DNA of 41,449 nt, taken from NCBI GenBank assembly GCA_023512105.1, contig JAIMAE010000007.1:1-41449 (forward strand). Direction: 5' to 3'. Of this stretch, positions 24,891 through 30,832 are shown in pieces (the first letter of the stretch is position 1; each line of letters starts with the position of its first letter). This DNA comes from Bacillota bacterium. GTDB taxonomy: Bacteria > Bacillota > Sulfobacillia > Sulfobacillales > Sulfobacillaceae. A program made the translations under genes and the position numbers. Below the pieces are notes generated by a model. It did no database searches. It saw only the letters and a program-made list of their open reading frames with translations, and was not told the origin of the DNA.

Positions 24891-25613
24891 CTACCAGGGG
24901 GTGGGGACGGGGTCGACCCGCAGGTAGGTGCAGGCCAAGGCCGGGCGCGGACGACTCTCGGGCCAGGCCCGGACCAGCCGCCCCACCAGGGGATGTAACC
25001 CCTCTTGGCGCAAGGCAGCCAACAAGGCGTGGCCGCTGGCTTCCCCTCCCGCCTCGCGCCAGACCTCCTCCAGACTGCGGGAGGCCAGGACCATGGCCAA
25101 GGCGTGGCTTTTCGGGCGCAGAATGCCGCGCGAGGCGGAAAACCACAGCGGCACCCGATGGTCGGCCTCGAAGCGGGCCGGCTCTCCCGGCCGCAGCCAC
25201 CGCTCCTTGCCGGAGACGCCATCTTCGACCAGGATGAAACAATCGCCGAAGACGCCATACTCCACTTGGTCGTCCTCGATCCGGACCACCGCCAAACTGG
25301 CCACCGGCGACTCTTCTCGCTGCCCCCAAATTTGTCGGTATTGCCGGGAGACGTTGATCAAGAGCTGGGGCAACAACATCCGCAAGGGTGCCGAGGCTTC
25401 CTCGGTGACATACCGGCGCAAGGCGTGGTCCAAGGTGGTGACCAGCCACTGCAAAGGAAGGTCGTCGGCCAGTCCGCCAGGCGGAGGGTTGCCGTGCACC
25501 ACCCAGCCCCAGCGATTGATGGCTCCAGCCACGTCGTAGTTGTGGGCGGCCGTTTGGGCCGGCATCGAAAGGGTGGCGTTGGCGGTCACCCGCATGCGTA
25601 CACAGGCTGCCAT
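24891..25613 (-). CDS. PP2C-like protein with degenerate metal site
   Basis: A 240-aa protein resembling bacterial PP2C Ser/Thr phosphatases: an N-terminal NYDVAGA (compare N-x-D), a VVHGNPPPGG turn where PP2C has V-V-D-G, a middle SPVASLAVVRIEDDQVEYGVFGDC equivalent to the usual S-A-x-L...GD segment, and no membrane helix. The metal-binding Asp of the DG motif is His here (codon CAC), so phosphatase activity is doubtful. GGAAGGAG precedes the ATG at 25613 on the minus strand; the frame extends upstream to 25949, but that part looks non-coding. Its stop lies two bases from the whiA stop. The family call is tentative. Confidence 0.55.
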   Translation of the reverse strand: MAACVRMRVTANATLSMPAQTAAHNYDVAGAINRWGWVVHGNPPPGGLADDLPLQWLVTTLDHALRRYVTEEASAPLRMLLPQLLINVSRQYRQIWGQREESPVASLAVVRIEDDQVEYGVFGDCFILVEDGVSGKERWLRPGEPARFEADHRVPLWFSASRGILRPKSHALAMVLASRSLEEVWREAGGEASGHALLAALRQEGLHPLVGRLVRAWPESRPRPALACTYLRVDPVPTPW

Positions 25614-25800: not shown

Positions 25801-25917
25801 ATGGGATTGGCATTGGCGCTCTTCTGTGGCATGTTGGTGGTCCCGGCCCTTTTCGCCTGGCTGGTCGATCGGGGGCTCAAGCCAGAGGAAGAGGCGCATG
25901 AGAGGCCGCTTTCATAA
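25801..25917 (+). CDS. 38-residue membrane peptide
   Basis: A short frame reading MGLALALFCGMLVVPALFAWLVDRG and a charged tail with KPEEEAHERPLS: one hydrophobic helix followed by an acidic end. A GGGAG lies about twelve bases upstream, which is longer than ideal. An in-frame stop at 25789 limits the N-terminus. The flippase-like gene begins 38 bases downstream in the same direction, so the two could be co-expressed. No family is recognised. Confidence 0.4.
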   Translation: MGLALALFCGMLVVPALFAWLVDRGLKPEEEAHERPLS

Positions 25918-25955
25918 GGCGCGAGGAGTACCGCTTTTGGGCTGACCAAGGCTGG

Positions 25956-27122
25956 ATGGGTGCCGCCCTTTTGGTCAGCGGGGCAGGGAATTACGCCTTC
26001 TCCACCTTGTTAGCCCACGGGTTGGGTCCCGTGGGCTACGGCATGATCGGGGCCTGGCTGAAGGTCTGGCAGTGGCTGTTCATTCCGGTCGGGGTCATCC
26101 CCTGGCTGGCGATCCGCTCTGGGTCGCAACTGCGCGAGCCGGTGATTTGGCTGGCCGGGTTGGGGGTGGGAGGAGCAGGGGCGGCCTGGATGGCGACGGT
26201 GCCGTCTCTGGACCTTTCGGCGCTCGGGGCCGCGTTGCTCGGGGCGTCGGTCGCCCCTGGAATGGCTGCCGCCGTCTATGTAGGACGGCTCGAACGCCTG
26301 CGCCGGTACCGGGCAGTGGCTGCGGTGGCGGCGGTTGGGGCGGTGTGGTCCCTGGGGGTGGCGTGGGCGGTGACGGCCTCGGGCCACCCCCGGGTGAGCT
26401 TGGCCGGGGGCGTCTTGGCCGGACAAGCGCTGACCTATGGTGTGGCGCGCCGCCTGGCCGCGGGCGCCAACACCCAAGGCTGGGATGGAGCGGGCGATGC
26501 CCGCCAGGCGGTGGGGGCGGTGTTGGCCTCTCTGGTATTGACGCTGGGTCAGACCTTAGATGGCGTGTGGGCCCGAATTACCCTGCCGGCGGCCGAGGCG
26601 GGGCAGTACGGCGGCATGGCCACCGTGGCTCACAGCCTCCCTTACGTGGCCGGAGGCGTGGCGACGGTGTTGCTCAGCGCTGCGCTCTCTGGGTCGCCGA
26701 GGCAAAGTCTACCCTGGCTCGGGCGAGCGCTTGGGGTCTACGGGGTGCTGGCCGGTGCGGGCCTGGTCCTCTTGCGGGGTTATGGCTCGGTGCTGGTCAA
26801 TGCCGTGTTGGGCGGTGACTTTGCCCCGGTCACCGGCTGGCTGGGGAGCTACGGAGTGGCGATGGCGGCGCTGGGGTGGGTGGCGATTTGGCTGGGCTGG
26901 GCGGTGGCGCGGGGGGAGTTGGCGGTGGTGGCGGTGGCCCTGGCGGGAACCATAGCCTGGGGATGGGAGCTGTCCGGGGCTCACGACTACCGGTTGATGG
27001 TGGTGGCGGGGGAACGGGTTTGGCTGGCTACCGCAGCGGCGGTGACGGCCGTAGGGCTGGGACTGGGGGTTGCGGCCAGACGGGGGGAGACCGCGCCGCG
27101 TGGTTGGGGAAAGGTACCTTGA
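25956..27122 (+). CDS. polysaccharide flippase-like (MATE/MOP superfamily) membrane protein
   Basis: A 388-aa polytopic protein with about eleven or twelve hydrophobic helices. The N-terminus SGAGNYAFSTLLAHGLGPVGYG matches the opening of oligosaccharide flippases of the MOP superfamily (Wzx/RfbX-like), where a lipid-linked glycan is moved across the membrane. It is somewhat short for the family (usually 400-500 aa). No glycosyltransferases are adjacent, so the substrate is unknown. ATG 25956 has only a weak AAGG upstream, and no better in-frame start exists. Confidence 0.7.
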   Translation: MGAALLVSGAGNYAFSTLLAHGLGPVGYGMIGAWLKVWQWLFIPVGVIPWLAIRSGSQLREPVIWLAGLGVGGAGAAWMATVPSLDLSALGAALLGASVAPGMAAAVYVGRLERLRRYRAVAAVAAVGAVWSLGVAWAVTASGHPRVSLAGGVLAGQALTYGVARRLAAGANTQGWDGAGDARQAVGAVLASLVLTLGQTLDGVWARITLPAAEAGQYGGMATVAHSLPYVAGGVATVLLSAALSGSPRQSLPWLGRALGVYGVLAGAGLVLLRGYGSVLVNAVLGGDFAPVTGWLGSYGVAMAALGWVAIWLGWAVARGELAVVAVALAGTIAWGWELSGAHDYRLMVVAGERVWLATAAAVTAVGLGLGVAARRGETAPRGWGKVP

Positions 27123-27772
27123 GAAGGTCGCGACGCAGACCGCCAATGATTTTGGGTTTTGACCTTTGTCGCCGGACGGCGACCTGTGAATGCTCATGAC
27201 GGCCGGCATCCCTCTGTGTGCCACCCGGCGACTTCTCGGCACGGGCGAAGTCGGTCGGCGGTCTTCTTCATTCCACCGTTCGCCTGCGGCAAGGGCGGGA
27301 GCCGGCGCGCCTATCAGAACCATGGGGCGTCCTAGGTCTCCGAGAGCGACCAACACCTTTTCCGGCCTTAAGGGAAGCTGGATTTGACGTCATCTGCACG
27401 AGACGGGCGACTTGGACGTCCAGGGGTTGGAAGCCCGCCGGCCGGCCTTTGCCGGGCTCTCCCACATCTTGGCCAGCCATGGCGCTCGGCGCCGGGTCAA
27501 TCGGCGCGTTTGGCCTGCGAAGGCGGTGATGGAACCGCCGAAGTAGCCGTGGCGGTACGGAAAGGCGCCCTGGGGCGTAGCCGAAAATCGCGGTGTGTGG
27601 GGTTTATCACCTGATCCCGGGGATACCTCTGCCACCACTTACCCTGGCCGGCGGCTAGGATTTTGGGATTGAATGGGATACAATACGTATGAAGGGCGAA
27701 ACGATGGGTTTCGGGCGGGTATGTGAAAACGCGAACAAGGACTTCAACCCCTAGAAGGGTGGGGGTGGGCGG
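27123..27772. other. 650-bp region without a convincing gene, several inverted repeats
   Basis: No frame gives a recognisable protein. Inverted repeats include GTCGCCG/CGGCGAC (27168-27183), CGACTTC/GAAGTCG (27229-27235 with 27247-27253), GGCGGT/ACCGCC (27522-27527 with 27534-27539) and CGAAAC/GTTTCG (27697-27713, just before nuoA). None is followed by a T-run, so none is an obvious terminator. A possible decayed coding stretch lies at about 27218-27546. The 3' end carries the likely nuo promoter and leader. It could hold a structured RNA, a dead gene or a long leader; I cannot decide. Confidence 0.45.
27679..27684 (+). promoter_or_regulatory. candidate -10 box of the nuo operon
   Basis: TACAAT lies about 90 bases before the nuoA start, in a small AT-richer island of the spacer. 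The -35 position at 17 bases (TAGGAT) is poor. A CGAAAC/GTTTCG hairpin (27697-27713) would fall in the leader. Confidence 0.3.
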
Positions 27773-28126
27773 ATGATCGGCGAATATCAAGCCCTGTTGG
27801 TCTATCTGGTGGTTTGCTTCCTGGTGGCCTTTTCGATGTCGTTTGCCTCAGAGCGCCTGGGGCCGAAGGCGCCCGGCGGACTGAAGCGAGAGACCTATGA
27901 GTCGGGGATCGTCCCGGAGGCCCCGGTGCGGTACTTCTCGGTGCGGTTTTACCGAGTCGCGATGTTGTTCATGATCTTTGACGTGGCGGTGATGGCCCTG
28001 TATCCCTGGGCCACCAGCCTGACCCTGCTGGGCAAGGCCGGCTTCTGGCACGCTTTGGCCTTCCTGGCGGTGGTGGCGGTAACCTTCGCCTATTTGTGGA
28101 AGAAGGGGGGATTTCAGTGGCATTGA
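27773..28126 (+). CDS. nuoA: NADH-quinone oxidoreductase subunit A
   Basis: A 117-aa membrane subunit with three helices near the quinone site of complex I. The conserved loop [35 protein letters not shown] is diagnostic. GGGGGTG precedes the ATG. It is the first gene of the operon, and its stop overlaps nuoB by ten bases. Confidence 0.96.
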
Positions 28127-29114: not shown

Positions 29115-30371
29115 ATGGCGAGCCTAGGCCCGGAAGCCAAGGCCGGGGAGATGCCCCCGGATTCTCCCTTTGTCCGCGGGGCGGAGGCCGGCCCCGAGCT
29201 GTCCGAGGAGACCATGGTGATCAACCTGGGGCCCCAGCACCCCAGCACCCACGGGGTGCTGCGGGTTCGGCTGACCCTCGACGGCGAGCGGGTGGTAGAC
29301 GCCGAGCCGGTGATTGGATACCTGCACACCGGGTTCGAGAAGACGGCCGAGAGTTTGACCTGGCAGCAAGCCAACACCGTGACCGACCGACTGGATTACC
29401 TGTCGCCGATGAGCAACAACCTGGCCTACGTGTTGGCGGTAGAGAAGTTGATGAACCTGGAGGTGCCCAAGCGGGCCCAATACATTCGCGTCTTGTTTGC
29501 CGAATTGACCCGGATTGCCAGCCACTTGGTCTGGCTGGGGACCCACGTCATGGACCTGGGGGCGATGAGCCTCTTCTTCTACACCATGCGCGAGCGCGAG
29601 GTCTTGCTCGACATCATCGAGGCCACCACCGGGGTACGCATGAACCCTAGCTACTTTCGAGTGGGGGGGTTGGCCTACGACCTGCCGGACGGGTTTCATG
29701 AGAAGGTCCGCGACTTCCTGAAGGAATTCCCCCGTTGGATGAAGATGTACCGCAACCTTTTTGAAGACAATCCGTTGATTCTCGAGCGGCTGCAAGGGGT
29801 GGCGGTGGTCAGCCGCGAGCAGTGCTACGCCTACTCGGTGACCGGCCCCATCCTGCGCGCCACCGGGGTGGCCCGCGACCTGCGCAAGGACGAGCCGTAC
29901 TCCTCGTATGAGGAATTTGAGTTCGAGGTGCCCACGCGCACCGAAGGAGATGCCCTGGCCCGTTTTTGGGTGCGGGTGGAAGAGATGTACGAGAGCCACA
30001 AGATCATGGAGCAGGCGTTGGAGAAGATCACCCCCCACGGCCCGTACACCACCAGCGACCGGAAGGTGGCGCTTCCGCCCCGGGATGAGATCTACGGAAA
30101 CATGGAGGCCTTAATCCATCAGTTCAAGTTGGTGACCGAAGGGTTCTCGGTCCCGCGCGGCGAGGTGTACCAGGCGGTGGAAGGGCCGCGCGGAGAGATG
30201 GGGTATTACTTGGTATCGGATGGCGGCCCTCGCCCCTATCGCTGGCGGGCGCGGACCCCGTCCTTCTACAACTTGCAGACCTTGCCGTTGATGTGCCGGG
30301 ACGGGTTGGTGGCGGACGTCATCACCACCATCGGCAGCATCGATATCATGCTGGGAGATGTCGACAAATGA
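29115..30371 (+). CDS. nuoD: NADH-quinone oxidoreductase subunit D
   Basis: A 418-aa subunit (49-kDa family) that forms the quinone pocket with NuoB. Conserved parts are NLGPQHPSTHGVLR, GYLHTGFEK, the YLSPMSNNLAY region, SHLVWLGTHVMDLGA and the C-terminal TIGSIDIMLGDVDK. An N-terminal extension of about 35 residues precedes the conserved start. GGAGGTG is the ribosome site. The stop overlaps nuoE as ATGA. Confidence 0.97.
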   Translation: MASLGPEAKAGEMPPDSPFVRGAEAGPELSEETMVINLGPQHPSTHGVLRVRLTLDGERVVDAEPVIGYLHTGFEKTAESLTWQQANTVTDRLDYLSPMSNNLAYVLAVEKLMNLEVPKRAQYIRVLFAELTRIASHLVWLGTHVMDLGAMSLFFYTMREREVLLDIIEATTGVRMNPSYFRVGGLAYDLPDGFHEKVRDFLKEFPRWMKMYRNLFEDNPLILERLQGVAVVSREQCYAYSVTGPILRATGVARDLRKDEPYSSYEEFEFEVPTRTEGDALARFWVRVEEMYESHKIMEQALEKITPHGPYTTSDRKVALPPRDEIYGNMEALIHQFKLVTEGFSVPRGEVYQAVEGPRGEMGYYLVSDGGPRPYRWRARTPSFYNLQTLPLMCRDGLVADVITTIGSIDIMLGDVDK

Positions 30372-30832
30372 AGCCGCATTGGCGCCAATGGGTGGAGGAG
30401 ATTCGCCAGCAGTTTCCCCAAGGGAACTCGGCCTTGTTGCCGCTGTTGCACCGCATCCAGGCCGAGGAGGGATGGCTGTCTCCGGAGACCCTGGCCGACG
30501 TAGCCACCCTCCTGAATCTGCCGGTGACGACCGTCGAATCGGTGGCCTCGTTCTATTCCCTGTTCTACAAACGGCCGGTGGGGGAACGGGTGGTCCACGT
30601 CTGCGTGGGGCTCTCCTGCGCGCTGAAAGGGGCCGACGCCTTGATGCACCGCCTGGAGGAGCACCTTGGGATTCGCCAAGGTCAGACCACCCCGGATGGC
30701 AAGTACTCGTTGATGGAGGCGGAATGTCTGGCCGCCTGCGACCTGGCCCCGGTGGCCCAGGTCAACCTGCGGTACATGGGACCGGTGCCGCCTGAGGAGT
30801 ATCAACGGCTCTTGGGAGAGGGGGAGAAGTGA
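30368..30832 (+). CDS. nuoE: NADH-quinone oxidoreductase subunit E
   Basis: A 154-aa thioredoxin-fold subunit of the NADH-oxidising module with the [2Fe-2S] cluster N1a. Ligands are C-x4-C in CVGLSC and C-x3-C in ECLAAC. The ATG overlaps the nuoD stop. Its presence, with nuoF and nuoG, shows a full NADH-input arm rather than the shortened 11-subunit form common in Bacilli. Confidence 0.96.
   Translation: MKPHWRQWVEEIRQQFPQGNSALLPLLHRIQAEEGWLSPETLADVATLLNLPVTTVESVASFYSLFYKRPVGERVVHVCVGLSCALKGADALMHRLEEHLGIRQGQTTPDGKYSLMEAECLAACDLAPVAQVNLRYMGPVPPEEYQRLLGEGEK

Follow-up and report, generated by a model that had tools for sequence, protein, structure and literature searches.

The window, meaning the whole 41,449-nucleotide stretch of DNA that was analyzed, contains the start of the complex I (nuo) operon. 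The first gene of this operon, nuoA, encodes complex I chain 3 (27773 to 28126, plus strand; PF00507, E = 8.4e-26) and is followed by nuoB (PF01058). The gene order in a sister genome is yvcK, whiA, a minus-strand open reading frame (ORF), a small membrane ORF, nuoA, and nuoB. The window has the same order plus a flippase-like gene (25956 to 27122, plus strand; a 388-amino-acid ORF with a codon usage z score of 9.6) and 650 nt (27123 to 27772) between the small ORF and nuoA, an interval of 136 nt in the sister. Pfam searches of the window confirm WhiA, NuoA, and NuoB, and give CofD (PF01933), which we take to be the family of YvcK, at the yvcK position. The minus-strand ORF (24891 to 25604) matches the sister at 63% over a longer reading and appears PP2C-like by eye, with no Pfam match. 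The small membrane ORF (25801 to 25917, plus strand, 38 amino acids) has a sister homologue that stops just upstream of the nuo promoter.

The 650-nt stretch is a composite of a spacer and the nuo promoter lying side by side. Window and sister nuoA are 90% identical, and the alignable part of the stretch is restricted to its last ~120 nt, with 72% identity at positions 27652 to 27739 and a second alignment of 69% over a stretch continuing into nuoA. This conserved nuo promoter region (27652 to 27772, plus strand) lies behind a lineage-specific spacer (27123 to 27651) in which no gene is recognized and which shows no excess structure and only short matches within the class.

The conserved region contains two boxes. 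The first is a -10-like TACAAT (27679 to 27684, plus strand), from which we predict a transcription start at about 27691 and a leader of ~80 nt. The -35 of this promoter is poor, a consensus promoter scan returned no promoter, and a terminator scan gave two terminator-like sites, both within nuoA (shuffle mean, 2.5). The second is a Rex-operator-like box, TATGTGAAAACGCGAACAAG, with the core TGTGAA (27720 to 27739, plus strand). A weight matrix was built on 27 loci with the window and sister excluded; for one of these loci (L023), an incorrect TGTGA out of three was taken as the training site. The matrix scores the window site at 21.4 bits, and the runner-up among 82,860 positions reaches 7.0 bits. 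In an alignment of 9 of the 10 TACAAT loci, which form the window's promoter class (L014 was left out), both TACAAT and TGTGAA...ACAA are invariant.

The box recurs well beyond this class. We surveyed 30 nuoA loci, drawn from 37 genomes with a match, and found TGTGAA 20 to 110 nt upstream of nuoA in 28 of them (window and sister counted), against 0.9 of 30 expected from a mononucleotide shuffle that ignores relatedness; locus L033 has no box upstream of nuoA. Nineteen of the 30 loci carry TATAAT 11 to 13 nt upstream of the box, so that the box would overlap the start. Ten, including the window and sister, have TACAAT alone, 38 to 49 nt upstream, an arrangement that would place the box within the leader, where it would act as a roadblock. 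The one remaining locus has neither hexamer.

The redox sensor Rex is a likely candidate for the protein that binds this box. A rex gene (PF06971) is present in 39 of 41 genomes, and the window's own genome encodes a Rex with both PF06971 and PF02629. In 26 of 36 genomes, rex shares its contig and strand with nuoA and lies 14.76 to 15.06 kb downstream of the start of that gene. The other 10 (the window's own genome with four of the same order, and five of other families) have rex and nuoA on different contigs, and the nuo-rex linkage is therefore not seen in them. In the window's own genome, rex lies on contig C73 (L106, G000:C73) behind the gene for a polyprenyl synthetase; when aligned to the sister, this contig continues from the end of the window. 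The best site on this rex contig scores 2.8 bits with the leave-out matrix, and no strong site is present there.

Exact matches to TTGTGAAN5TCACAA were counted at 33 distinct places, spread over 20 of the 41 genomes (one match for the control), and the surroundings of 31 of these places were inspected on both strands. Three precede cydA-like genes, two confirmed by Pfam and the third by eye, and one is the nuoA box of G005. At least six precede a single family of small membrane proteins, for which the one member tried had no Pfam match and which is possibly a member of the Rex regulon; such proteins lie behind perfect Rex-like sites in L079, L093, L094, L097, L099, and L100, near base 1501. 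Two places are inside long ORFs, and the remaining ones are beside various or no clear genes. Many of the 31 have no adjoining respiratory gene. The exact motif is absent from the window's own genome and from the sister, and allowing up to two mismatches gives 20 strand hits against 12 for the control in the own genome, little enrichment. One of two one-mismatch sites in this genome lies where a COX2-COX1 operon begins. It overlaps the first codons of the longest COX2 reading and would be upstream of the gene only with a later start codon; the other site is inside a long ORF on C105.

Regulators of the CRP/FNR type bind TGTGA-N6-TCACA-like sites, and the box could in principle be the operator of one of these, or of another regulator that recognizes TGTGA half-sites, rather than of Rex. 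Its spacing fits both types, the right half-sites are loose, and the lack of a strong site on the rex contig would also be in keeping with a different regulator. We nevertheless regard this as unlikely, given the position of rex near nuo in most of the genomes where both were placed, the like sites upstream of cydA in three genomes and at the oxidase operon of the window's own genome, and the inclusion of both nuo and cyd among the Rex targets described in passages of PMC5355995.

Turning to the spacer, the statement in the initial annotation that the 650-nt stretch holds no clear gene is borne out by ORFs, Pfam, NCBIfam, PHROGs, and codon usage. The longest ORF wholly within the stretch has 103 amino acids (ORF list with a lower limit of 40 amino acids). 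Pfam gave nothing above the cutoff for seven ORFs that lie within the stretch or overlap it, nor for one long antisense ORF. A clear protein homologue was likewise missing from all six frames, translated with X at stops, for which the top Pfam match was a below-cutoff PEP-CTERM motif (E = 0.077). Two ORFs had no NCBIfam match and three stretches had no PHROGs match. Codon usage z scores are 0.6 to 2.6 for eight listed ORFs and 3.7 for the ORF at 27412 to 27546, compared with 7.8 to 17.2 for eight correctly framed genes; the model behind these per-ORF scores included the gene at 30358 to 30832 in the wrong frame, and the sliding-window model took 30293 to 30832. Sliding windows pick out one 50-codon stretch with gene-like codons (27394 to 27543, plus strand; z = 4.1), a relic or a chance occurrence; 1.8% of 455 wrong-frame control windows reach a z score of 3.5.

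The flippase-like gene next to the spacer was identified by eye as a Wzx/MATE-type membrane protein. Pfam has no match for its 388-amino-acid product, and NCBIfam gives a weak, unrelated match alone (E = 0.014). Homologues elsewhere are distant (28 to 36% identical) and occur in 30 of 41 genomes and, in the larger set, in 38 of 154, its own genome counted. The gene is absent from the sister between the small ORF and nuoA, and the other loci examined do not have it at this position either. In DNA searches of 154 genomes of the class, with at most four first-look candidates scored per genome, the spacer itself has matches of only 24 to 37 nt among the matches listed. These, at four places outside the stretch, fall in unrelated sequence and differing frames and were set aside as chance in GC-rich DNA. 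Neither plasmids nor phages contain a DNA match to the spacer.

The interval from the end of whiA to nuoA is at most 403 nt in 23 other loci, 591 and 867 nt in two more, and 1.6 to 2.2 kb in G003, G025, and G030. In G031 together with these three, the gap is 0.9 to 2.2 kb and lacks this flippase, and tblastn did not find this flippase in any of the five loci with gaps of 591 nt to 2.2 kb. Loci L108, L109, L110, L028, and L033 have whiA-nuoA gaps of 0.6 to 2.2 kb without the window's flippase. Judging from these wide, flippase-free gaps, the site seems to take up DNA repeatedly. An insertion in the window's lineage is the more likely source of the extra DNA, and the sister may instead have lost it, which is conceivable since G003, G025, G030, and G031 also have gaps of 0.9 to 2.2 kb. 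The insertion would have brought the flippase-like gene in between the small ORF upstream and the promoter of nuo.

A mobile element was considered for the extra DNA and rejected. Twelve inverted-repeat pairs can be listed in 25880 to 27720, none of which joins both edges of the extra DNA; for the repeat pairing 25949 to 25970 with 27291 to 27312 (73%), only the left edge has an arm close to it. The window's own genome has no second copy beyond a 37-nt match among the matches listed, and the flippase-like protein has no plasmid match, just as plasmid and phage DNA gave none. A 19-nt direct repeat (27141/27652) was judged by eye to be chance.

Flippase genes are frequently found within gene clusters, which makes it conceivable that a gene came in with the flippase and decayed, leaving the spacer as its remnant, and the gene-like codons at 27394 to 27543 would fit such a relic. 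The search results make this improbable. No frame of the stretch has a Pfam match, and the 52-amino-acid piece encoded there has no match in PHROGs, the PDB, or plasmids. Comparison of the +1 and +2 frames with 41 genomes gave best nonwindow E values of 0.0028 and 0.0011 per genome, respectively, about the chance level for 40 genomes.

The initial annotation had also reported at least four good inverted repeats, had read the stretch as a structured noncoding RNA or a long regulated leader of the nuo operon, and had proposed a covariance-model search and comparative folding. Inverted pairs can indeed be listed, yet not above chance. None appears in 26900 to 28000 with a seed of 9 and a length of 12, and relaxing these to 6 and 7 gives 14 pairs, comprising six overlapping palindromes, five with 71 to 89% complementarity, and three perfect 7-bp stems. 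The whole region folds with z scores of -0.73 (plus strand) and -0.94 (minus strand) relative to shuffled sequence, and 7 and 5 of 20 shuffles, respectively, fold at least as well as the real stretch. Locally, none of 46 100-nt windows inside the stretch has a z score below -2, compared with 8.4% and 5.2% on the two strands outside it (250 windows each). The hairpins of the stretch are thus what chance gives in GC-rich DNA. The covariance-model search found no Rfam family at the gathering threshold in the whole window, nor any match up to an E value of 1 in 26900 to 27900. Comparative folding of nine aligned loci with RNAalifold yielded no consensus pairs in the conserved last ~135 nt. Among the matches listed, the upstream ~530 nt have none within the class longer than 37 nt, so the nuo operon does not carry this part as a conserved element. 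A structured RNA or riboswitch-like leader in 27123 to 27772, for which 650 nt without a gene ahead of a regulated operon had spoken, is therefore rejected as extremely improbable, with Rfam, whole-region and local folding, and consensus folding all null. The leader proposal survives in part: nuo regulation is retained, through a promoter and a DNA box resembling a protein operator, which lie within the final ~120 nt, and both the folded RNA and the length of 650 nt fall away, the predicted leader having ~80 nt.

Taken together, we consider it likely that 27652 to 27772 is a Rex-repressed nuo promoter behind a lineage-specific spacer, and that the switch of the complex I genes is probably worked by Rex. 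On this model, the region would hold the promoter of the complex I operon together with a short leader, and RNA polymerase would start at about 27691. When NADH is low, Rex would occupy the box at 27720 to 27739 and block transcription, and NADH would release Rex from it, so that complex I would be made when NADH is available for oxidation. The spacer at 27123 to 27651, with no recognized function, would have arrived with the flippase-like gene or decayed behind it. More tentatively, the operator-like box may have been kept across the order while the promoter changed, with complex I and its NADH sensor forming one linked feedback unit. The analysis shows the hint of a new RNA to be a false lead and predicts that, in a group of Bacillota that has received little study, Rex controls complex I and rex is linked to nuo; apart from this prediction, the regulation suggested here is ordinary.

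Rfam riboswitches and cis-regulatory RNAs share with the stretch a position ahead of an operon and differ from it in that the stretch has no Rfam match, excess folding, or consensus pairs. The closer parallel is with published Rex operators of Gram-positive bacteria (PMC5355995), which the window box resembles. The B. subtilis consensus quoted in passages of that paper is loose in its right half. The Rex operator is an 18-bp imperfect palindrome, TTGTGAA-N4-TTCACAA. Compared with this operator, the window box matches 6 of 7 bases in the left half and 4 of 7 in the right (10 of 14 fixed bases), its right half reading GAACAA where the Rex operator has TTCACAA. Release of Rex from DNA by NADH is stated in passages of PMC5355995, PMC8836258, and PMC13077300. 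In Streptomyces avermitilis, Rex binding is described at the nuoA1, cydA1, atpI, and rex promoters (PMC5355995). Its nuoA1-N1 operon has, like that of the window, a TGTGAA half-site and an operator close to where nuo begins, and S. avermitilis further resembles the genomes studied here in having Rex and cyd genes with like sites. The two systems differ in layout, according to the descriptions in PMC5355995: the window box lies ~30 to 48 nt after the predicted start, whereas that of S. avermitilis nuoA1 lies over the -35, and rex is found close to where the nuo operon ends in the present genomes and with hem genes in Streptomyces.
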